Below are positions 6,698 to 59,501 of a stretch of DNA of 64,000 nt, one piece after another. Source of the stretch: Boletus sp. NGJ (Eukaryota > Basidiomycota > Agaricomycetes > Boletales > Boletaceae); assembly GCA_019096195.1 (NCBI GenBank), contig JAGTXK010000073.1, forward strand, positions 1,240,001 through 1,304,000. Direction: 5' to 3'. Every line of letters starts with the position of its first letter. The stretch's first letter is position 1. A program made the position numbers and the translations under genes. The notes beneath the pieces are model-generated. The model did not search any database and was not told where the DNA came from. It saw only the letters and a list, made by a program, of their open reading frames with translations.

Positions 6698-8094
6698 ATG
6701 ATGGCCCGACTGCACGAGCTCGCTTCACTAACTCTTTTCCGTGCGACTCCGGCACAAGTGTCAGAGTCCCGCAGGAGGACTTGGCACGAGTGGGGAGGTG
6801 TACTCACCGAGGAACAATACCTAGAGCGCGACAACCAAATGGATGGGATGGAACATGCCGCCAACTCTAAGATGATCACCTGGTAAACGTGCAATCTGAA
6901 TGACAACGATTCTTCCTGATCATGGTAAATACAATACAGGGTCCTCGCACCAAGAGATAATCCAGATACTCTCGATTTCGCGAGTGCTTGTGAAACGTTT
7001 GTACCACTGGTTGTTAGACAGACAACGTCAGCTAGGCTGATGTTATACGCGCAACCACTGGCAGATACAAACGAAAGGGACTTGTTCGATACAACGGATC
7101 AAGAGGAGTGCAGGGAGTGACTTGCTACGCCGTAGCATGTGTATTCACTCCGCCTCGCAAACGAGGGAAGGGGTATGGGTCTCATATGATGCGCCTGTTG
7201 CACTGGGTCACCTCGAGACGAACATCCGAGTACAACCTACCCCATTTCCCAGCGGAATGGGGCGCTCCGCCTCCCGAGATCGAAGAAGCTGGGGGCGGAT
7301 TGTTTTCCATCCTATACAGCGCCGTAGGGGACGACTTCTACAAGGAGACTGGCCCCGGGATCGAGAAATCGGGCGGATGGGAGACAAGGCGACCCATCTC
7401 GACCACCTGGGAGATCCCCGTGCAGGACGAAGTCGAGCAGGACAGCACAGACAACAAGTGGACATGGCTCAAGTATGGTGACCTGAATGCTTTCTGGGCG
7501 AAAGACATTCAGCTTATTCGACACACGATGATGAATTTGCCAGACTCGAACCCGGACTATCACACTGAAAGACCCACGGCGTTTGTAACATACCTTCCCG
7601 ACGAGGGCGTCGGGTCTTTTCACATCTTCCGCTCCATGTTTGCCGTCGATAATATCGTGTCCATGAATGTTTGGGGCATAGAAAAGAAGGAGAGCTACCC
7701 CGACCAGCCATTGACAACCTATGCTACATGGACAGTTGACACAAAGCCACTCCCTCCAGTGCTCGTCATCACCAGATTGAGTGCAGCTGAAGCAGATTTT
7801 CCAGCACTTATTAAGAGAATCCAGGAAATCAGTGGAAAGAACGGGATTAAGAAAATGGAAGCATGGAATATACCATCACATCTCCTTGGAGCAGTGGCGA
7901 AGACAGGGGGCAAGACTTTTGCGAGGCAAAAACGTCTGCCTGCCTTGAAATGGTATGGAGAGGGAGAAACAGCAGACATAGAATGGGTTTGCAATGAGAA
8001 GTATGTCCACCATTTTTTTTGCAAATGTGGCCCGGGGATGACAAGACCCTTAGATTTTGTTGGTGTTGATAGGGAAATTGCTCATAACATTTGA
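6698..8094 (+). CDS. LYC1: LYC1-type lysine N6-acetyltransferase (GNAT family)
   Basis: Three exons (6698-6882, 6940-6996, 7065-8094). The N-terminus reads MMARLHELASLTLFRATPAQ, and a WGGVLTEEQYLERDNQM helix follows. The GNAT acetyl-CoA loop is visible as VFTPPRKRGKGYGSHMMRLL (R-x-x-G-x-G type). Then comes the fungal LYC1 signature GLFSILYSAVGDDFYKETGPG and a C-terminal domain with GVGSFHIFRSMFAVDNIVSM. Family members acetylate lysine in the first step of fungal lysine catabolism, or act on related substrates. Both splice junctions are supported by the decayed paralogue immediately downstream, whose junctions fall at the same codons. The C-terminal 20 residues differ completely from the paralogue after a run of eight T at about 8013-8020, so the true end may have been shifted by a length change there. 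Confidence 0.82.
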
Positions 8095-8699: not shown

Positions 8700-10022
8700 A
8701 TGACTCAGTCGGAGCTCGCCTCGCTCACTTTATTTCGCGCCACCCCAGCTCAAGTGCTTTGAGTCACGAAAACGAACCTGGCCCCAATGGGGCGGTCTAC
8801 TCACCGAGGAGCAGTATCATGAACGTAACGCCCGAATGGACGCCGTGGAGCATGCAGTCAACTCCCGGATGATAACTTGGTACGGCTGCTCAAATCTTCC
8901 GTCGATGCAATGAGGCTAATCTCAGATGAACCTCATCAGGGTATTGGCACCGAGAGACAATCCGAGCACCCTTGACTTTATGTGTGCTTGTGAGACGTCA
9001 GTGCATCATGTTCTTTTGATCAAAAGATGTAAACTTGATATCACTTAACAGTTACAAGCGACACGGGCTTATCCGATACCCGGGTTCAACAGAAGTGCAG
9101 GAAGTTGCATGCTACGGGGTCGCGTGTGTGTTCACCCCACCGCATAGACGAGGGAGGGGATATGCCTCTCATATGATGTCTCTCCTGCACTAGGTCACCT
9201 CAGGAAGGACATCGGAGTACAACTCGCCCCAATTCCCAGTCGAGTGGGGTGCTCCACCCCCCGAGGTGGCGGAGGCTGGGAACGGGATGTTTTCCGTTCT
9301 CTATAGCGACATCGGAGGAAAAATTCTACGAGAAAACTGGCCCTGGGATCGAAAAGGCTGGCGGCTGGGAAACAAGAAGCCCTATCTCGACTATCTGGGA
9401 AATTCCTCGCAAAGCAGATGTTCAGCAGAGTAGCATAGACAACAAGTGGACATGGCTCAAATATGGTGACCTTGATACCCCCTGGGCGAAGGATGTGCAG
9501 TTCATCCGACGCACGATGGAAAATTTGCCCGAGTCAAACCCGGACTATCACAATGAAAGACCGACGGCGTTTGTTACATACCTTCCCGATGAGGGCGTCG
9601 GGTCTTTCCACGTCTTCCGTTCCATGTTCGCTGCGGATAGTATCGTGTCCATGGACATCTGGGGCGTAGCGAAGAAACCCACCGATAGTGCCAGTGACCG
9701 ACCGACTCATGCAACGTGGTCGATCGACGTGCGCCCATTACCTCCCACTCTGATCGTCACCCGAATCAGCGCGGCAGAATCAGAATTTCCGGACCTTCTT
9801 TCTCACATTCAGGAAGCCGCTAGGAAGAGTGGCATTGGAAAAATGGAGATATGGAACATACCCGAGCATTTACTCCAGATCGCGACAGAGACAGCCAGCC
9901 AAACCTTTGAAAGAAAGGAAAAGCTGTCTGCTATCAAGTGGTATAGTGCAGGTAAGTCAGTGGATATAGAGTGGGTCTCAAACGAGAAGTATGCTCATTT
10001 CCACTGGATTTGGGCAATTTAG
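8700..10022 (+). pseudogene. Decayed tandem copy of LYC1
   Basis: It is collinear with the upstream LYC1 gene, keeps both intron positions and stays strongly similar along its whole length (for example WTWLKYGDLDTPWAKD against WTWLKYGDLNAFWAKD). It starts MTQSELASLTLFRATPAQV. Three changes break the frame: one extra base at about 8757-8760 just after that segment, a TAG at 9194-9196 where the intact copy has TGG (context LLHWVTS), and one extra base near 9318-9325 in the segment equivalent to YSAVGDDFY. The long 3' frame from 9249 remains open and ends EKYAHFHWIWAI, a more family-like C-terminus than that of the intact copy. Each lesion is a single base, so decay looks recent, or one could be an assembly error, but three together argue for a pseudogene. 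Confidence 0.8.
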
Positions 10023-42786: not shown

Positions 42787-44292
42787 CTAGCACGTCTCAC
42801 CATCGTTTCCCGCACTAGAAGTCTGTGCAGCAATCGCGGTGCTAGAGGGGGCAACGGGAGAAGTGATGGCAAGCTGAGAGGGTTGCGGAGTTTGGGTGGG
42901 AATTGTGGAAGTGATATTGGCACTCTGGCTTGTAGAGGGGACAACAGGAGAAGTGATGGCGGGCTGAGAGGGTTGCAGAGTTTGGCTGGGAGCTGTGGTT
43001 GTGGTGTTGGTACTCTGGCTTGTACCAGCAACAATAAACTAGAAATGTGAATGTCAGTTCGTCTTTTTCAACGAATGGCCCGAACTCAAACTCACGTAGA
43101 TCGTATCGTCCGCAGCACCGCGCTGGGCAACCGGTAACAACAGAGGCTGATGATTCGTCGCAGCGTTGATGGTAGTCATCTTGTACGTGCCCTCGGGCAG
43201 GCCACCGGTGACATTGGCATACAGGTAACCGTTGGCATCGGGTTTACTGTTCAGCGCCACAAAGAATGCGAACTTGGTTGGGTCTGTGGGTGTGGTCTGG
43301 TTGAGTGATTTAAGAGCCTCAATAACGACGTGCGCATGCCCCTGAATGAGACCAGTGATTGGATCCAGCTGCTGAGGTGCTGCGAAGTACTTTGTGTCTG
43401 GATCGGCAAAGTAGCCCGTCGCAAAGTTCCTGACAGCCAATGCAATTTGAAAGGTGCTGTTCGATGGGACGACAGCGAGGTTCAGGGGCGAGACAAACTT
43501 AGCACTCGGCATGTTGGAGGTAGATGGGATCGCCCCCATCGGAGCAGGGTTGCAGGAGCCATTCTTGAGCTGCTGGCCATTGGTGATGGGAAGGTTTGGG
43601 AGCGTAGCGCACCAGTTGATGAAGTTGTTGGTGGATGTCAGTGAAGCGACTTCGCCAGCCTCTGTAGCGTTCGTGTTCAGACCGTTTTGCGAGAAGTTTG
43701 TGGCGATCACAGAAGATAAGAGTGTCAAGGAAGTCTGAGCACTACTTGAGTTGGTCGAGCCAGAGCCAGACGAGGCCGTCGGGGTCGCGGTAAGCGACGC
43801 CATCGTAGGAGAGGGGGTAACGGTTGCATTAACAGAAGTAGTACCATTGGTTGCTCCAGTGGCGGCAACGCGCGTATTCAGATCAACCTGCGTCGTGCAG
43901 GTGATACTCGTCCCGGCCGAGTTAACTAATGGCAATGCTGCACAGCTAATGATCGACGGGTCATTAGCCTGTTGGGGGAAACATTGACAGGACTTACGCC
44001 AAACCGGGACTACAGGGCGACAAGACATATTTCCCGTTGACACATTGGGCGAATTGACCATTGACACAAGCGTTACCAGAGGTACAGGACGAGTTAGCAG
44101 TCAATGACACGAACTGATTGCTGTGATGAAGGATCAGAAAAGTATTAACCGCAGAGGAGACTGGATTTACTTGAGATTGATGGCGTCTATACCATTTTGT
44201 AGCTGAAAACTACTTGTCTGACGTTGTCTGAGGCTTGGACGGGCCGAAGCCAGAGAAGAAAGCAACAGTGTAGAGAACGTGATGAACCTCAT
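42787..44292 (-). CDS. Secreted Ser/Thr-rich basidiomycete protein
   Basis: Starts with a clear signal peptide (MRFITFSTLLLSSLASA) followed by RPSLRQRQTSSFQLQNG. A Cys-containing segment (NSSCTSGNACVNGQFAQC) is followed by a Ser/Thr/Ala linker with many N-glycosylation sequons. The core domain has FINWCATLPNLPITNGQQLK, MGAIPSTSNMPSAKF, QGHAHVVIEAL and TTINAATNHQPLLLPVAQRG. I know this domain from many Agaricomycete secreted proteins, sometimes mislabelled 'ribosomal protein S17'. No function is known to me. A final exon after an intron near 43035-43083 adds about 85 residues with an imperfect two-copy repeat (TSQSxN..., QPSQxAITSPVxPS), which looks like a mucin-like or cell-wall-exposed tail. 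Confidence 0.8.
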
Positions 44293-48911: not shown

Positions 48912-49280
48912 ATCGCTGCGTCTGTTGGATGCAGTCCAGCTGAAACACTTGAGAAGGAAAGTGCGGATATGTTGCTACAATGTGGAGACTAGAAGTGGAG
49001 ATATGAGATGTTGCGCATGAGAGTGCGATTATGTCATCACGCCATAGCCATTCACGTCCTTGGACTAGTGCAAAACCAGCACTCGTTATCTGATTCAGAG
49101 TGCCATGACTCGTTCGAGTCGGCCTTGGCAATGACTGATTGGCGTTATGTGAATAGGAAAACAGTGACGATTCGTGTCTTGTACCATAAATGCTGCTAGT
49201 AGTAGTATACAAATAATAACGATATGAAAGTGGACAGGGGAACAGAATGCTTTTGATATGGATGTAAAGGTGCTTCCCAA

Positions 49281-49727
49281 TCAGAAAAATTTGAGGCCGC
49301 GGCGACCGGAGTGCTTAGAGGAGGGTTTTCTCGTGCCCCAAGACATGTTGTCGTCCTCAAGCATCTCTGCCTGCAGAAGAAAAAAGAGGTTAAGCATGAT
49401 GGAGTACTCCGTACAGAATATGATGCTCACATATTCGGCACCATTGGAAGATGATGATATCAGTGATGGTGGTGGTGATGGTGACTGGAAGCCCTGCGAG
49501 ATGGTCAGAACTGGGGACCCGGCAGAGGCGTCTGACCTACCAATGGAAAAGTAGGATCCACGGGGGATGAATGACCGTTGACCGAACCAGAGCACTCGCT
49601 CGATTTAGTACTCTGGGGATGGAAAGCACGTCAGTAGCTGAAACCCTTTTGCATTATTCCATTGGACGGTTACCTTTGTGCTGCCAACGGACTGTCTCTT
49701 GAACGAAGACGAGATGATGGAAGACAT
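49281..49727 (-). CDS. 92-aa small protein of unknown family, copy A
   Basis: Four exons on the minus strand: 49674-49727, 49541-49612, 49431-49493 and 49281-49370. All introns are phase 0, of 61, 47 and 60 nt, with GT-AG ends and CTGAC or CTTAAC branch-like sites. The protein starts MSSIISSSFKRQSVGSTK, has a Ser/Pro-rich middle (FQSPSPPPSLISSSS), then an acidic AEMLEDDNMSWGTRKPSS and a basic end HSGRRGLKFF. No signal peptide, membrane span or known domain. Exons are identical at every base to copy B. Introns differ at several positions. I do not know what it does. Confidence 0.7.
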
Positions 49728-49802
49728 TGTGTGTAGAGGAGAGAGCAGACAGGCAAGTAGTAGTGGGATGAGTGGATGCCTTTTGAAAGCAAAAGATGGG
49801 CC

Positions 49803-49812
49803 TCTTTTATGT
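49803..49812 (-). promoter_or_regulatory. TATA-like box of copy A small-protein gene
   Basis: On the minus strand, CATAAAAGAGG lies 84 bases upstream of the ATG, the same spacing as TATAAAAGAGG in the two other copies. It sits in a conserved stretch that also contains GACTTTATCCGATAACG. Confidence 0.55.
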
Positions 49813-49949
49813 TGAGGGATGGAGGGCCGTTATCGGATAAAGTCATTTGCCCCGGATCTCGTGTAAGAGTCCGCTTCTTGACGAGGCCGCGGGAGAGAAC
49901 AGGTACAGCTTACTGATGGCCTGGAACGTTCACACCCTTTCCGGGATTC

Positions 49950-50381
49950 TCATATGTAGCGGTTGGGTCGTTTCTTCGGCTTTCTCGGTTTACCCCACGC
50001 CAAGTCATCCTCGTCCAAATATTCAGCTTGGATCTGAACGTGACAACAAGTGAGCGGAAAAAACCCGCCTCCACTATCTCCGTGGCTTACCCCGTACACT
50101 TCCTCCCCTTCGAAGCCTATTGCGGGGTTGCCAGCTCTTTGGTATTCATTCCTCGGTGGCTTACCAAAGGTGTCATTCCATGCGCCGCACGATGAATGTC
50201 GACCTTACAGCCGTGGCCAATACATGACTTCAACATTTGCCAGAATTCGGACAGCCCCCGATGCTTTTTTTCGTCGTTATAATTGCCTGGGTGAATCATT
50301 CAGTTACCAAGCGAAGCGAAGGTTACGGTGGGACGTTCGCACAGCGTTGCGATAACAATGTGATGCTAAAAAGGAGAACAT
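49950..50381 (-). CDS. Candidate 86-aa protein (MFSF family), copy A
   Basis: Three exons are proposed: 50327-50381 (MFSFLASHCYRNAVRTSH), 50165-50286 (NYNDEKKHRGLSEFWQML, then KSCIGHGCKVD and AAHGMTPL) and 49950-50033 (IQAEYLDEDDLAWGKPRK, ending RPNRYI). Coding length is 261 nt, a multiple of three. The first intron is 40 nt. The second is about 130 nt and contains two similar donor-like blocks (GGTAAGCCAC). A TATATAAAGAGG box lies about 35 bases upstream of the ATG. The model rests on frame continuity and on the coding-like third exon, shared with copy C except for one synonymous base. An unspliced reading stops at ELATPQ. No known domain. Confidence 0.4.
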
Positions 50382-50453
50382 GATGGACGTCAAGGGCGTA
50401 AGTTGTAACCTCTTTATATACCAAACTCTTTGCAACTGACTATCATCGTAAGT

Positions 50454-53400
50454 GCCAACGGCGACAGACCTTCTAATGCCATGTTTGCAGCCGTCATCTT
50501 CGTGTTTGCCAACACAAAGCCTGACCTGAGGTTAGGTTACGTACAAGTCAAGCCAAGACTATTACCCACGGGCACGATTCTTGCGATGTAAAACCTCTAC
50601 GGTCCAGGAATTATATCGCTCCAGACCAGAGTCTCTCTTTGACTGGAAACCCGGGTACACTTCATTTATCGAAATGCTTCTGAAGGTACTGCCACGCTTG
50701 TGCAAGCTGGGACGCTGCTAGGTATGGGATCGAGGTAGCGCGTTGACCTATACGGTGAATCTTGTCGTGCAACTATTCAGGCGGGAGCTTAGTCAACAGG
50801 GTTTCTCCTTTGCCGACAGTTGTCTACCCGTCCACTGAACTACAATAAACACAGGGATGGATTCTTGGAATGATCCCGTCTACGAGATACTCGTCAGGTC
50901 GACCTTGATCAAGGCATCAAACACTCACGTAAAAGGCGTAAGGAAGGTAAGTTGATGGATCTCAGATATACTGGAATCACACGTGTAAGAAGTGAGAAGC
51001 ATATTCATATTTAACTTGACGTACCGGCGTCTTGATGCTTAAAGACTAGCAGGCCCTCTTCGGCAGTCTACCGTGACGGTATGTATCCCGCTGCTGGGCG
51101 AAGAAACTGTCTGTAGACAGTGCGGGAGTAAGCACGTCAGCCAAGTACTCCCTGAGGATGCTCATGACGGTGTTGAAGTCTGCCTGCCTTGATGATAGGG
51201 ATGCCCACACCAGGCTGAGAGAGCAACAAAGGGGTTGCATCGTTGAACGTACCCCAGTGTCTATGACATCACTAACGAATAGCCTTACCGCTTCACCCTC
51301 ACAACAATGCGCCCCGTCACTGCCCGCGGTTTGCGTACAAGCTTCGGGTTAGATCCGTGCACCCATCGCCGCATACACGCAACGCCGCGGGTGTCGAGAT
51401 CCGTAAAGGAGAAATTATCGGAGGTGGTAGACAAGGTGTGGTTTATCTCACATGATCCGTGGCTTCGACTTGTGTAATCGGGATCTCGAGCAGGTCAACA
51501 AGAGAGTTGGCGAGGGCTTGAAACAGGTGAGAAAGCCACAGAAAAGACAAAGAGGACCCTAGGCGAGTAAAACGCACGAGTACCCGTTGTTGGTGACGAC
51601 GAGATAACTAAACACGCAAAAGACAAGGCCGAGGGGCCGCAAGAGGGAGCAGATCAAAGAGGACAGAAACCCGAGGAGGTCGCCAACGACGCATCCTCTC
51701 TGTAAAGGGAAGGTCGTTCCAGCCGCTAAAGAAACTGGGGAAAATGCACACAAGGATGTGTCACATCCACGGAACACGCTTAATTCCTTCTCGGTCGGAA
51801 CTTGACACATGCAGACTCGCTTGCAAGTGGATGCTTGGCATCATTGTTTGCCGACAAGGCAGCCGTCATCCGGACGTTGAATTGGAGTCTCCGACTAAAA
51901 ATGCTCGAGTTGGTAGTGCTGTGGGTCATGGCAACTGCACATTGACCTCTTCGAGAAATGGAAAAAGGGTGATACATTAGCAAGCAAACGATGTTCCTCG
52001 AAGTTGTAAGACGACAGGATGGGGACTGGAGCAGACAGCAGTACTCGTAACGAGACGAGAGTTTCCCGGATTTAAACCCCGAACGTCTGCAATGTCGGAC
52101 GGCAACACAAGCGAAAGGAATGGGTTCAGTGACGTAGGCATATGTATCCAATGATTTTTTAAACCGGCTTCCTGCATCCGGGTTAATCTCCCCCTGTCTC
52201 GATGGTCAAGGAACAGAGCATATAATTTAGTGTGCATGCATACATTAAATCAGGTTTGGGTAGGTGCTGGGCTAATCATCTTCAGGTCGCCAACTTGCCA
52301 AGGAGCAAGAGGACAAGAATCACATGGTGCACCAGATTGATCAGCAGCCCTCGGATCCAGGGTACGGTACGGATCAATGCTGACAATCAAGAGTGCCGAG
52401 GGGTTTTGAGCTTTTAATGCCAAGGGTATCTCATTCTTCGCCTGTTATTTCAACCATGCGAGCCGGATACGAATCCATTGCCAATGATAGATTGTCAGAT
52501 AGAGTATTGATGGGTCACAGGTTGAGTGGATACTCAAATGATGTGTTTGCCGAATATGTGATGTTCTCTCCCCAGGCAGGGTGGTAAATATCGCGTACGA
52601 TGACAACGACTTCTGCCGGTGTGGGGTTTATCTGATTGTTACCCCCTGCGTGTGACGGAGCCGGTGATTGACCCGAGGGACCATGCAAAATATCGGACCA
52701 TAGGCGGTACCCGTCTCTGGGAAAATCATCCCCCGAGGGGAGCTCAAGGAGAGGGTATCCGAGCAACGCAGGTGAACTCGCAGGCAGTTGCTTGCCAGTT
52801 ACAGGCACGATTCGGATCCTAGATTTCGGCCCCGTTATGCATGCAGTACTGATAGTCCGGATGTTGTGTTGCTCATGGCGATTACAGTGGGTGTGGGGGA
52901 TTCGGCGATCATCTGTCAATGCGACATGTAGAATGAGCAAACCATTGCGAGGAACATACTGGTTGTGGGGGTGCCCAAATAACACCTTATCATCAGCGTG
53001 ACAAGCTGCGCGGCCTTGGTCATCCAAACGGTGGGCGCCGTAATGGGGCCACTTGAGAAATTGCTGACCAACTCGCAAAAATCAGCAAGGCGTTAAGCAA
53101 CTGGATGGATGATAGTGAGCGGAACGGGATGCAGTGTCTTATCAGATGGAAACAGTTACTGGGCTCACCCCGGATTTGCGATGAAATCGCATCAAGTGTT
53201 GTCAGGTCCAAAGTTAAACTGACAGGATAGGATGTCGCTCTCCACGCTCAATAGAATTTGGTATAATTATCTCACTGAGGGAGAGCTGACGGAGAAATGG
53301 AACGTTAGGGGCAACGAGAAAAATATCACAGCGCATGCATTGTGACAGAGCTCGACGTTGGTCTTGAACGGAAACGACCTTGCTTGGGATGCTGCAAACG

Positions 53401-53833
53401 CTGCATGGTGATATGGAGGCTGCGAGACTTGTGTGGATCCTACATATCTGATTTGATTCCGAGTCGATTTGTCAGGACCATTCGAGTAAGTATCTGAATG
53501 CGAGGTCCTACAATGTATCTCCCAGGGCCCGCGGAAGACATATTCAAGCGGAGTCCAAAAGCATGGCCGGCCGAATCGACAAGTTTCTCTACTTTGCCAT
53601 ATGATGCATTGCCCGGAGATTTGTGATAAGCAGCTCATTTAGATCGACAAGCGCGGACCAGAAAACTTTGCGAATGAGTTCTACGAGTTTCATACGTGAC
53701 GAGGGAGTAGGATCTTGACCTGACGGAAGTATAGATCAGCAGATTCTGGCAAGGTGAGAGAAAATGCAGGCATCCGGACCGCGGTAGTCCAATGATAAGA
53801 CTTGTCAGCTGTTTGACAATCATGCATAGTAGG
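50454..53833. other. Gene-poor interval between duplicated units A and B
   Basis: About 3.4 kb with no gene I can support. The longest frame is 187 codons on the minus strand (52515-53078, from MRVGQQFLKWPHYGAHRLDD). A second of 123 codons lies at 53267-53638 minus. Neither shows a domain, plausible splice structure or a promoter like those of the neighbouring units. No terminal repeats, reverse transcriptase or transposase motifs were seen. It may be decayed unique sequence. Confidence 0.5.
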
Positions 53834-54070
53834 CCGCAATCTGATAGCGGGGAATAGAAACTAAGTATACTGCAACGTTGTTCAAGAAAGGATCTAAATA
53901 CAATCATTCTGACAAAGGAACTTTTGTGTGCTGTGTGTGAGTGCGTGATGAAACCGTGGGTGGCTTATGTTCGTACCTTGTTCTCTCCCGACTTGGCTAT
54001 GGCCATGGACACCACCGTCGAGCAGCGGACTCTGGGGGAAAATGACTTTATCCGATAACGACCCTCTATC

Positions 54071-54081
54071 TATAAAAGAGG
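54071..54081 (+). promoter_or_regulatory. TATA box of copy B small-protein gene
   Basis: TATAAAAGAGG lies 84 bases upstream of the ATG, at exactly the same spacing as in copy C. It is preceded by the conserved GACTTTATCCGATAACG. Confidence 0.65.
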
Positions 54082-54154
54082 CCCATCTTTTGCTTTCAAA
54101 AGGCATCCACTCATCCCACTACTACTTGCCTGTCTGCTCTCTCCTCTACACACA

Positions 54155-54600
54155 ATGTCTTCCATCATCTCGTCTTCGTTCAAGAGACAGTCCGTTGGCA
54201 GCACAAAGGTAACCGTCCAATGGAATAATGCAAAGGGTTTCAGCTACTGACGTGCTTTCCATCCCCAGAGTACTAAATCGAGCGAGTGCTCTGGTTCGGT
54301 CAACGGTCATTCATCCCCCGTGGATCCTACTTTTCCATTGGTAGGTCAGACGTCTCTGCCGGGTCCCCAGCTCTGATCGTCTCGCAGGGCTTCCAGTCAC
54401 CATCACCACCACCATCACTGATATCATCATCTTCCAATGGTGCCGAATATGTGAGCATCATATTCTGTACGGAGTACTCCATCATGCTTAACTTCTTTTT
54501 TCTTCTGCAGGCAGAGATGCTTGAGGACGACAACATGTCTTGGGGCACGAGAAAACCCTCCTCTAAGCACTCCGGTCGCCGCGGCCTCAAATTTTTCTGA
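54155..54600 (+). CDS. 92-aa small protein of unknown family, copy B
   Basis: Exons 54155-54208, 54269-54340, 54388-54450 and 54511-54600 encode the same 92 residues as copies A and C. Exon sizes are 54, 72, 63 and 90 nt, all multiples of three, so skipping any exon would keep the frame. Against copy C only one exon base differs (GAC/GAT, Asp, synonymous, in the EDDN segment), while the three short introns and the flanks carry several substitutions. This pattern favours the spliced frame over the longer unspliced antisense frame of 98 codons at the same place. Confidence 0.72.
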
Positions 54601-55143
54601 TTGGGAAGCACCTTTACATCCATATCAAAAGCATTCTGTTCCCCTGTCCACTTTTATATCATTATTATTTGTATACTACTACTAGCAGCATTTATGGTAC
54701 AATCGTCACTGTTTTTTTTTTTTTTCCATTCATATAGTGGACGTCAATCAGTCAAAACCAAAGCCGACTCGAACGAGTCGTAGTATTATGAATCAGATAA
54801 CGAGTGCTGGCCCGCGGCCTACCTCGGACTAATTTTACATTAAACTCCAGAACGACGGAAAGGCGCAAATCTAGATTACACAAGCTCATTTTCTCTGGCC
54901 GAACTGAGGCACGCATCTCCACTGACGCTAGTAGTTGGCTGTCTGCTAGGTCAAAAGGAGAAACGAAACCTAGTCCAATGGGATTAAAATAAAATAAAAT
55001 AAAGTTGATCAGGGTAACACCCGATGCACAGCCGTCAACGTACGATGTAGGGTTCTCTGTCTTAACGCACAGCGTCGTATGTGTCTTGATTGCAAACGGA
55101 TCGTTCGATAAATTAGGGGAATCTGTTGCGAGACAGACAGTTG

Positions 55144-55280
55144 CAGTAGACTTTCGCATAATGCATGGCGTCGGGAGCAACAAATGCTGATGCACCTTGA
55201 GGTCTATGCATTATTGGAGTGCATTTCATCTGGGGGAGGGCTCGAGCGCAGCTCCTCCTGCATTATGAGAAAGTCTACTG
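55144..55280. repeat. Short inverted-repeat block in unit B
   Basis: Two 22-bp arms in opposite orientation, matching at 21 of 22 positions, start CAGTAGACTTTC and enclose about 93 bp. The arms are at 55144-55165 and 55259-55280. The same block occurs in unit C. No target-site duplication is evident. It could be a MITE-like remnant or a hairpin-forming regulatory element. Confidence 0.6.
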
Positions 55281-55771
55281 TCCCATTTCAGCGAGCGACG
55301 CGATGGTCCCATGTACCAGCGGTTACATCGGTTGAGTGGAATCGGTCAAACAATAATATAGTAACCCTTTGGCGTACCATGCAACACGATGGACTTACTT
55401 GCTGCCAGCGAATCACGGGCGATTCATCTGCATCCCGACTTCACCGGTAAATTTCAACTTGAATGCATATGCCACGTGCAGCCACGAGCGCTGCGCAGCA
55501 TACTATGATGCTGCATTGATGCACCGAGGAGGAGAAGCAGAGAATCACACGAGTGTGAGATCAGAACGTCGAGGGCTGTAGACGTCATGGAGCAATTGCC
55601 ATAACGTAGTCAGTTGCAAAGAGTTTGGTATATAGAGAGGTCTTGACGATATTTTCATACCAACTGCCAGTGTCCTATTCCTCCCTAACCACGAATCGGT
55701 CAGTGGACCGCGCATAATCCGAAACGCACGAACTGTAGAAATTTACAACTTACGCCCTTGATGTCTTCATC

Positions 55772-56067
55772 ATGTTCTCCTTTTTCGCACCACATTGTTG
55801 TTGTGCGAATATCCCACCGTAACCTTCGCTTCGCTTGGTGACTGAATGATTCACCCAGGCGACTAAACCCCACTAAAAAAGCCTCGGAGGCTGTCCACAT
55901 TCTGGCAAACGTTGAAGTCATGTTTTGGCCGCGGCTTTGAGGTCGACATGGTGAGTACACGGTTTCACATCGTACGGCGCATGGGATAACGCCTTTGGTA
56001 AACCACCGAAGAATGAATACCAAAGAGCTGGCAACCCCCAAACACGCTTCAAAGTGGTAAGCCACGG
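55772..56067 (+). pseudogene. Damaged MFSF-type gene, copy B
   Basis: It starts ATGTTCTCCTTTTTCGCACC like copies A and C, but a net loss of eight bases in exon 1 (near 55793-55802, relative to C) shifts the frame so that it reads MFSFFAPHCCCANIPP-stop. The third exon (EYLDEDDLAWGK in A and C) is missing because homology ends first. The upstream TATA is altered to TATATAGAGAGG. Confidence 0.5.
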
Positions 56068-57083
56068 CTTGCCAAAGGTTTCCGTCCCACCTAAACATCG
56101 TGGGAAAGTGTAGCCCCTGTCTTACCGGATTTTGCCGACCGACGTATGCTGCAACAGATCTACGCACTAGTGCTACCTGACCTGAACGTTTGAACCGTGA
56201 TCCCTACTGGACAAGGGGGCACACCACCAGCTGTTTGAGTCTTAATCCATTCCCGGAATCCCTCCCAGGATCCCTATACTGTCTTTCCCAGCCATTCAAG
56301 TGCCTCTGAGCTTTTTGAAAAGGTTTGTTGTTGAAATCTCGTAGGCTGAGGCTCGCTCGCACCATCACCACCGCTCGCCATCACAGCGCACGCGCCACTA
56401 CCACCAACACCCCCGTGTGCAGTACCGGAGTCACCCCCACCCCGTGCGCGAATGGCTGCCCCCGTCTGTACACAACTTGAAATGGGCACTCCACATGTGC
56501 ACAAGCACTCGCCAGTCACCCCCACCCTGTGCACGGGCACTCGCCCCCCACTGGCACCCATGCACGAACAGTCGCCTCCGCCCCTATGCAGACGACCACC
56601 CACCTGTGCAAAGGGCTCCCCGTCCCCTCTACTCCAGGCGTGAGTGATCGACAATTCCATTCTCACTGACTGTCGCATCACATCCAGTCGTGGGCATGAC
56701 TCCGAGGCTGACCACTGCATTGCTCGGCCTCCGCCTGTGCACGCTCATGCTTCAGGCCAACGGCTTGCCTCCACGACCACCCGGCGTGCTTGGGCCAGCC
56801 ACGTCTGCAAAGAGGATTAGAGCAAGGCAGACAATGACCGCAATCTTGACCAATGTACGACTCGGAGTGCGTGCTGGTGAATTGGAACCTGCCGGTTGGG
56901 GACGAGTATGTTATGATATATAGACAACCATGCACATACTACCATGTCATTCTAGGTACTTTGAGCACACTTTGATTCTCCAAAAGTCCAAAAAGTCCTC
57001 TGAGATTTTGCTGATGACTTGCCTCATTTGACCTTGCAAATGACAAGCAAGGTTTCAGCCGGCACTCCCCAAGTCACGGTGGA
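56068..57083. other. Unique GC-rich spacer between units B and C
   Basis: About 1 kb not shared with the other units. From about 56400 to 56640 the sequence is C-rich with imperfect reuse of AGTCACCCCCACCC and TGTGCACxxGCACTC words. Frames on both strands (148 codons minus, 63-77 plus) look like by-products of that composition. No gene called. Confidence 0.5.
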
Positions 57084-57350
57084 CCGCAATCTGATAGCGG
57101 GGAATAGAAACTAAATATACTGTAACGTTGCTCAAGAAAGGATCTAAATACAATCATTCTGACAAAGGAACTTTTGCGTGCTGTGTGTGAGTGCGGAGAC
57201 GGTGATGGACCGCGGGGTTGGCTTACACATGAGCATCCCAGAACGGGTGTGAACGTTCCAGGTCGACCGAACTTGGCTATGGCCATGGACACCACCGTCG
57301 AGCAACAGACTCTGGGGGAAAATGACTTTATCCGATAACGACCCTCTATC

Positions 57351-57361
57351 TATAAAAGAGG
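57351..57361 (+). promoter_or_regulatory. TATA box of copy C small-protein gene
   Basis: TATAAAAGAGG lies 84 bases upstream of the ATG, identical in sequence and spacing to copy B. Confidence 0.65.
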
Positions 57362-57434
57362 CCCATCTTTTGCTTTCAAAAGGCATCCACTCATCCCACT
57401 ACTACTTGCCTGTCTGCTCTCTCCTCTACACACA

Positions 57435-57880
57435 ATGTCTTCCATCATCTCGTCTTCGTTCAAGAGACAGTCCGTTGGCAGCACAAAGGTAACCGTCCAA
57501 TGGAATAATGCAAAAGGTTTCAGCTACTGATGCGCTTTCCATCCCCAGAGTACTAAATCGAGCGAGTGCTCTGGTTCGGTCAACGGTCATTCATCCCCCG
57601 TGGATCCTACTTTTCCATTGGTAGGTCAGACGTCTCTGCCGGGTCCCCAGTTCTGACCGTCTCGCAGGGCTTCCAGTCACCATCACCACCACCATCACTG
57701 ATATCATCATCTTCCAATGGTGCCGAATATGTGAGCATCATATTCTGTACGGAGTACTCCATCATGCTTAACTTCTTTTTTCTTCTGCAGGCAGAGATGC
57801 TTGAGGACGATAACATGTCTTGGGGCACGAGAAAACCCTCCTCTAAGCACTCCGGTCGCCGCGGCCTCAAATTTTTCTGA
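57435..57880 (+). CDS. 92-aa small protein of unknown family, copy C
   Basis: Exons 57435-57488, 57549-57620, 57668-57730 and 57791-57880. The predicted protein is identical to that of copies A and B. The single exon change is synonymous. Intron 1 differs from B at three to four positions and intron 2 at two. The 84-bp TATA-to-ATG distance and the start context (CACACAATGTC) are kept. Unknown function. The basic, aromatic C-terminus GRRGLKFF and the acidic EDDN segment before it are its most distinctive parts. Confidence 0.72.
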
Positions 57881-58386
57881 TTGGGAAGCACCTTTACATC
57901 CATATCAAAAGCATTCTGTTCCCCTGTCCACTTTCATATCATTATTATTTGTATACTACTACTAGCAGCATTTATGGTACAAGACACGAATCGTCACTGT
58001 TTTCCTATTCATATAACGTCAATCAGTCATTGCCAAGGCCGACTCGAACGAGTCGTAGTGAATCAGATAACGAATGCTGGCCCGCGGCCTACCTCGGACT
58101 AATTTTACATTGAACGACGGAAAGGCACATATTAACACAAGCCCATTTTCTCTGGCCGAACTGAGGCACACATCTCCACTAACGCTAGCATGCTAGGTCA
58201 AAAGGATAAATGAAACGTAATCCAACGGAAAGAAAGACGTTGAGCCGGATGGCACACGATGCGCGGTCATCAACGCACGATGTTATAAGGTTCTCTGCCT
58301 GTAAATATCTTAACACACAGCATCGTATGTGATTGCAGACGGATCGTACGATAAATTAGGGGAATCTGTTGCGAGACATGCGGTTG

Positions 58387-58523
58387 CAGTAGACTTTCGC
58401 ATAATGCATGGCGTCGGGAGCAACAAATGCTGATGCACCTTGAGGTTTATGCATTATTGGAGTGCATTTCGTCTGGGGGAGGACTCGAGCGCAGCTCCTC
58501 CCGCATTATGAGAAAGTCTACTG
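58387..58523. repeat. Short inverted-repeat block in unit C
   Basis: Same structure as at 55144-55280: 22-bp arms starting CAGTAGACTTTC at 58387-58408 and 58502-58523, with two mismatches. The block was present before B and C separated. Confidence 0.6.
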
Positions 58524-58892
58524 TCCCTTTCAGCGAGCGACGCGATGGCCCATGTACCAGCGGTTACATCGGTTGAGTGGAATCGGTCGAACAATAATAT
58601 AGTAACCCTTTGGCGTACCATGCAACACGATGGACTTACTTGCTGCCAGCGAATCACGGGCGATTCATCTGCATCCCGACTTCACCGGCAAATTTCAACT
58701 TGAATGCGTATTCCATGTGCAGCCATGAGCGCTGCGCAGTGTACTATGATGCATCGAGGAGAGGAAGCGGAGAATCACACGAGTGTGAGACCAGAACGTC
58801 GAGGGCCGTAGACGTCATGGAGTAACTGCTATACCGTACTATTCCTAGCGTTAGAAAACTTACGATGATAGCCAGTTGCAACTCGAATTTGG

Positions 58893-58902
58893 TATATAAA
58901 GA
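58893..58902 (+). promoter_or_regulatory. TATA box of the MFSF-type gene, copy C
   Basis: GGTATATAAAGAGG lies about 140 bases upstream of the ATG at 59034. The same box is about 35 bases upstream in copy A, where the intervening leader is shorter. Confidence 0.5.
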
Positions 58903-59033
58903 GGTCTTTGACGATATTTTCATATCATCGGTCCTCTTCCTCCCTAACCACGAAGCGGTCAGTGAGCCGCGCATAACCTGAAACGCACGGACTGTAGAAA
59001 TTTACAACGACTTACGCCCTGGACGTCTTCATC

Positions 59034-59501
59034 ATGTTCTCCTTTTTCACATCACATTGTCATCACAACGCTGTGCGAACATCCCACCGTAACCTTCGCT
59101 TCGCTTGGCAACTGAACGATTCACCCAGGCGACTAAATCCCACTATAACGACGCAAAAAAGCCTCGGAGGCTGTCCAAATTATGGCAAACGTTGAAGTCA
59201 TGTATTGGCCACGGCTGTAAGGTCGACATGGTGAGTACTCGGTTTCGTCGTGCGGCGCATGGGATGACACCTTTGGTAAGCCACCGAGGAATGAATACCA
59301 AAGAGCTGGCAACCCCGCAATAGGCTTCGAAGGGGAGGAAGTGTACGGGGTAAGCCACGGAGATAGTGGAGGCGGTTTTTTCCGCTCACTTGTTGTCACG
59401 TTCAGATCCAAGCTGAATATTTGGACGAGGATGACTTGGCGTGGGGTAAACCGAGGAAGCCGAAGAAACGACCCAACCACGGAATTACGGACCGTATGTA
59501 G
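59034..59501 (+). pseudogene. MFSF-type gene, copy C (probably disrupted)
   Basis: Exon 1 reads MFSFFTSHCHHNAVRTSH. After the acceptor used in copy A, the next exon runs into a stop (CGC GAC TAA), because C carries extra bases there. The later frame SKLWQTLKSCIGHGCKVD and the last exon IQAEYLDEDDLAWGKPRK, ending RPNHGITDRM, are still open. Either splicing differs in C or the copy is dead. An unspliced reading from the ATG would give about 50 residues. Confidence 0.4.

Follow-up and report, generated by a model that had tools for sequence, protein, structure and literature searches.

A small spliced candidate gene in three copies with one predicted protein, and its diverged sister unit, in Boletus sp. 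NGJ

Gene Copies and Exon Plan

The locus described here lies in a window of 64,000 nucleotides, the whole stretch of DNA that was analysed, taken from contig C81 of the Boletus sp. NGJ genome (1,738,993 bases; window C81:1240001-1304000), and it is situated away from the contig end. A small gene, here called g1, is present there in three copies, one of which is in the opposite orientation to the other two:

g1 copy A, 49281-49727, minus strand: exons 49674-49727, 49541-49612, 49431-49493 and 49281-49370, for a predicted protein of 92 amino acids
g1 copy B, 54155-54600, plus strand: exons 54155-54208, 54269-54340, 54388-54450 and 54511-54600
g1 copy C, 57435-57880, plus strand: exons 57435-57488, 57549-57620, 57668-57730 and 57791-57880

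As read from the sequence and from the alignment of the three copies, the four exons measure 54, 72, 63 and 90 nt, all in phase 0, and they are separated by introns that have GT...AG ends in every copy and measure 60, 47 and 60 nt, except that the first is 61 nt long in copy A. Spliced according to this plan, copies A, B and C would encode an identical protein of 92 residues, exon by exon MSSIISSSFKRQSVGSTK/STKSSECSGSVNGHSSPVDPTFPL/GFQSPSPPPSLISSSSNGAEY/AEMLEDDNMSWGTRKPSSKHSGRRGLKFF. The first-pass annotation had placed three copies of a gene with four phase-0 exons at these coordinates, and the alignment bears this out, with the same spliced product each time; the span that it assigned to the family does contain the g1 copies, but it is wider than g1 and encloses a second duplicated unit, g2, which had been overlooked. 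In every copy, introns 1 and 2 contain a match to the branch-site pattern CTRAY, at a distance of 19 and 12 nt, respectively, from the acceptor end, and the match is kept even though its last base varies between C and T among the copies; in intron 3 none of the three copies has such a match. The one-base change in intron length would cause a frameshift if the intron were retained. With an intact predicted spliced frame in all three copies, g1 is a credible small gene.

Promoter and Flanking Sequences

The surroundings of g1 are best described from copy C:

57315-57434, plus strand: proximal promoter and 5' leader of g1 copy C, with TTATCCGATAA at 57328-57338 and TATAAAAG at 57351
57881-57982, plus strand: near 3' flank of g1 copy C, with little variation among the copies (2 of 102 columns)
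57084-57314, plus strand: stretch upstream of copy C, matched at copy B by 53834-54034 and without a BLAST match at copy A

In copies B and C the sequence TATAAAAG stands at -84 from the ATG, and to these two copies applies the earlier statement that a TATA box is kept at a fixed 84 bp; in copy A, instead, the box is altered to CATAAAAG, and 6 extra bases are inserted immediately before it. Of the 84 columns that run from TATA to the ATG, a single one varies, namely the first T of TATA, which is C in copy A, and neither this stretch (P = 0.28) nor the near 3' flank (P = 0.33) differs significantly from the g1 introns. Further upstream 3 of 42 columns vary, with 6 gap columns, in the three-way alignment, and further downstream 24 of 108 vary, with 10 gap columns, in a stretch that is partly misaligned, the alignment of copy B being poor from 57983. 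The flanks had been reported to differ more than the gene, which is correct for these more distant parts but not for the near flanks, which vary little.

The element TTATCCGATAA, which we take to resemble a pair of GATA-factor sites, is found upstream of g1 in all three copies and at seven sites genome-wide, including the three at the locus, against four sites for a reversed control. The idea of a regulon marked by TTATCCGATAA was dropped: at the three of the four other sites that were inspected, no TATAAA lies within 139 bases downstream in matched orientation. Presumably resembling a heat-shock element, GAACGTTC starts 184 bases before the ATG in copy C; its octamer is seen by eye slightly farther upstream in copy A and is absent from the 200 bases scanned at copy B. 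Between copies B and C, at 56350-56640, irregular C-rich repeats made of CACTCGCC and GTGCAC units were also recognised by eye.

Divergence of Exons and Introns

In the three-way alignment only one of the 279 coding columns of g1 varies, a synonymous GAC/GAT difference at position 57811 in copy C, whereas the introns carry substitutions at 8 of 168 columns, all of them transitions, together with one column of a 1-base indel; both counts agree with the first-pass annotation, which had listed a single synonymous GAC/GAT change in the exons of copy C and about nine intron differences including a change of length. Fisher tests, in which sites are assumed to be independent while the three copies share their history and the counts are small, separate the introns from the coding sequence as a whole (P = 0.0022) and from the nonsynonymous sites (0 of ~210, P = 0.0014), but not from the coding sites at which a transition would be silent (1 of 89, P = 0.17). 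Purifying selection on the amino-acid sequence of g1 is therefore supported by these comparisons, and, since the silent sites are not significantly below the introns, only a constraint at the amino-acid level is demonstrated. The original proposal of selection on the spliced product stands as far as the amino acids are concerned and not beyond them.

A contrast between exons and introns could also arise if a reverse-transcribed spliced message were used as a template to convert exons and UTRs, leaving the introns to drift. The coding sequence and both near flanks, taken together, do vary less (4 of 465 columns) than the introns do (8 of 168; P = 0.0038), as such homogenisation would predict. 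In yeast, conversion by cDNA across an intron deletes that intron. All nine introns are still present at the locus, however; moreover, the stretch that is alike in the copies starts at the TATA box, and a transcript would probably begin only farther downstream; each conversion tract would also need to be as short as the exons (54-90 nt) or shorter. We regard this explanation as extremely improbable.

Probable Homogenisation Between Copies B and C

The likeness of B and C extends beyond the gene, and part of it falls on a short repeated element:

58387-58523, plus strand: MITE-like element, present also at 55144-55280 downstream of copy B, with inverted ends CAGTAGACTTT/AAAGTCTACTG recognised by eye

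When three badly aligned 50-base bins (starts 57234, 57984 and 58234) are omitted from the sums, the B-C differences number 8 in 650 positions of the gene block, 10 in 184 of the upstream flank, and 24 in 288 and 62 in 599 of two parts of the downstream flank. The introns (5 of 168) are significantly less diverged than both downstream parts (P = 0.028 and P = 0.0017, respectively), and their lower divergence relative to the upstream flank is not significant (P = 0.30). Introns that have diverged less than the downstream flank make some homogenisation, by gene conversion or unequal exchange, likely, and this process would be the partner of selection on g1. The first-pass annotation had argued that conversion alone would level the introns as well and had preferred selection; in the light of the B-C introns, the likely partnership of the two processes no longer allows them to be opposed in this way. 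A second stretch, at 58384-58683 (~55141-55442 at copy B), in which no coding was recognised and which consists in part of the MITE-like element, differs at 5 of 300 positions and is as alike as the gene block, so that low divergence alone is no proof of function.

The same data raise the question of whether recent gene conversion might account for everything, the whole gene having been levelled lately and the exon-intron contrast being due to chance. The limited divergence of the B-C gene block, introns included, relative to the downstream flank, the equal likeness of the non-coding stretch just described and the non-significant difference between silent exon sites and introns are all in keeping with it. 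What speaks against it is that the lone exon change is synonymous and that nonsynonymous sites and introns differ beyond what chance would readily give, and on this balance we consider conversion without selection unlikely.

A supposed conflict between the trees of the upstream and downstream flanks was also considered and dropped, as the differences of copy B at 57983-58006 are mostly a misaligned indel and a T-run, and with three copies such a conflict could be shown only if an outgroup were available; from 58007 onward the flank differences are evenly spread, four columns being peculiar to A, four to B and one to C.

The Sister Unit g2

Each copy of g1 is accompanied by a unit of a second kind, whose predicted parts are the following:

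g2 beside copy A, 49950-50453, minus strand: penultimate exon 50091-50150 and last exon 49953-50033 (IQAEYLDEDDLAWGKPRKPKKRPNRYI, then stop), with probable bounds; TATATAAAG at 50412-50420
g2 at copy B, 55607-56060, plus strand: downstream of g1, frame broken, last exon missing
g2 at copy C, 58850-59501, plus strand: downstream of g1; TATATAAAG at 58893, penultimate exon 59290-59349, last intron 59350-59405 and last exon from 59406 (IQAEYLDEDDLAWGKPRKPKKRPN...), with probable exon bounds

The last exon of g2 reads IQAEYLDEDDLAWGKPRKPKKRPN at both A and C. Aligned locally with g1 exon 4 at the protein level, it gives a score of 50, which was reached by none of 20,000 shuffles; for the full g1 protein against the two g2 exons, the score was reached in 7 of 20,000 shuffles. 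The motif AExL..DD..WG..RKP is found in the last exon of all three g1 copies and of two of the three g2 units, the exon being missing in the g2 of copy B. At the DNA level, instead, the likeness between g1 and g2 is not significant, either for the whole gene (69 of 300 shuffles) or for the last exon (396 of 2000), and the same holds for the promoters (551 of 2000 shuffles). Likeness in protein without likeness in DNA is what would be expected of old coding relatives. On these alignments, g2 is a diverged sister of g1, a distant relative recognisable through the last exon, and the g2 unit at copy B is evidently a relic.

This pattern bears on a more sceptical reading, in which no protein is made from g1 and the locus is a non-coding RNA or is non-functional, with an open frame that is incidental. 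Such a reading would fit a product that is of low complexity and rich in Ser and for which no homologue was found beyond the locus; on the other hand, the substitutions are patterned by exon and by codon effect, and the last exons of g1 and g2, being alike in protein and not significantly so in DNA, show coding behaviour. We judge the absence of a protein product to be quite improbable.

Within g2 itself, units A and C differ at 10 of 114 and 5 of 59 positions in the 5' part (~9%) and at only 1 of 188 in the last two exons with their intron. The last intron has 0 of 56 differences and one indel; since it is as unchanged as its exons, the low divergence of the 3' part does not show selection on g2. 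Two further attempts on this unit were set aside. Enumeration of models with one further intron, 83 of them for A and 50 for C, did not single out a complete gene model, and an internal repeat, comparing the last exon with the preceding one, was not significant (6128 of 20,000 shuffles).

Locus History and Genome-Wide Searches

At copy A, g2 lies directly upstream of g1 and in the same orientation, and at copies B and C it lies downstream of g1. Because g2 precedes g1 at A and follows it at B and C, we infer that the locus was once a tandem array (g1-g2-g1-...), which arose by local tandem duplication and was later modified by loss and by an inversion of the A segment.

The genome (32,776,125 bases in 141 contigs) was searched for relatives, scoring the best candidates only, so that the absence of others is not proven. 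No further copy of g1 was found either by the DNA search or with the 92-residue protein up to E = 10, the g2 protein search gave no further copy of g2, and no intron-less copy of g1 appeared in the DNA and protein searches. A degenerate motif pattern matched the genome twice, both times in g2, against no match for its reversed control, and a constructed consensus of the last exon found the known g1 and g2 units only.

Each g1/g2 unit might be supposed to be one copy of a gene-carrying, non-autonomous mobile element. Three copies, one of them inverted, might suggest mobility, as might the MITE-like element present at two of them, which has relatives of 74-76% identity on contigs C75, C22 and C21. 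Nevertheless, every copy of g1 or g2 that the searches detected falls inside ~10.4 kb on a single contig, and the ends of the copies differ (the stretch upstream of B and C is unmatched at A, and the g2 side differs), as tandem duplication with rearrangement predicts. A mobile origin is thus very improbable in our view.

Other repeats and matches were observed in the same window and genome. The 43 bases at 50473-50515 are identical to C107:386954-386996, with no longer match around them. The stretches 7062-7688 and 9049-9676 are duplicates with 77% identity, and an open frame that overlaps the former contains a LYC1-like GNAT domain (PF22998, E = 1.9e-30). At 42843-43024 a unit occurs twice head to tail (period 90 bases, 86% identity), inside an open frame of 133 amino acids (42842-43243, minus strand). 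Genome-wide, 131 matches to Plavaka transposase and 21 to hydrophobin were counted, and none of 14 control genomes had a match in either search, as would fit an Agaricomycete.

The Predicted Protein and Its Possible Function

The predicted g1 protein contains 27% Ser, has a pI of 9.4 and a GRAVY of -0.69, and falls on the border between order and disorder in charge-hydropathy terms (0.423 vs 0.425). It has no hydrophobic segment, the best mean over 19 residues being 0.09 and the best over 9 residues 1.08 (MSSIISSSF), and this hydropathy scan gave no indication of a signal peptide or of a secreted effector. Pheromone precursors of basidiomycetes are defined by a C-terminal CAAX box; the g1 protein ends in ...RRGLKFF and lacks it. 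Hydrophobins have eight cysteines in a fixed pattern, which is not found in the g1 protein, with one cysteine in 92 residues. The first-pass annotation had recognised no family for the protein, and in line with this it matched no Pfam family up to E = 10.

Other matches were weak and were not accepted: PcfK, the sole Pfam match of the g2 pieces, remains below the family cut-off (E = 0.064), and the PDB matches are to a VPS35-like chain (best E = 0.56) and to protein A over 17 residues (best E = 0.027). Rfam gave no matches at gathering scores and no tRNA was found.

The explanation that we favour, and that we hold to be moderately probable, combines tandem duplication, purifying selection, occasional exchange, docking through the C-terminus and the maintenance of three copies for dose. 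The product of g1 would be a soluble, probably disordered, Ser-rich and basic protein. Its acidic-Trp-basic segment at the C-terminus may be the working part, because the diverged sister g2 retains it, and would dock on a partner, and the Ser-rich remainder would act as a flexible and possibly phosphorylated tail. The three copies may be kept for dose; amino-acid changes would be purged from each of them by purifying selection, and occasional exchange between copies may keep g1 and its introns more alike than the downstream flanks. More tentatively, and as a possibility that we rate as rather doubtful, g1 and g2 could be two anciently diverged and co-located lineages of a family of small, disordered proteins not yet described in fungi, which have in common the C-terminal motif AExL..DD..WG..RKP as a dedicated docking peptide for one conserved partner, with the gene dose fixed at three.

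Relation to Known Systems and Significance

Fungi often contain duplicated genes whose function is unknown and which are under purifying selection, and as a system g1 and g2 are ordinary rather than of a new kind. According to passages of two studies, genes that are young or lack annotation occur widely in mushroom-forming fungi or in other fungi, and the young ones are overrepresented among those expressed during development (PMC8893723, PMC10949477). Compared with the unannotated and young Agaricomycete genes in these passages, none of which describes it, g1 is similar in that it is also without a known domain, and different in that it has three copies with an identical predicted protein and a diverged sister unit. 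It likewise resembles tandem families under conversion and purifying selection, as far as the opening part of one example describes them (PMC1855330), in its local copies and mixed signal, but it differs in having only three copies, one of which is inverted, and in the exon-intron contrast seen inside a gene of 0.45 kb. At the level of titles and abstract openings, and largely outside subscription papers, the literature searched does not name g1.

If other fungi keep the motif, g1 and g2 would constitute a new small-protein family with an internal control, in which identical predicted proteins can be set against drifting introns, and the diverged sister g2 would indicate the residues that matter. 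In that case the locus would also offer a test case for genes missed by annotation and for the distinction between conversion and selection.
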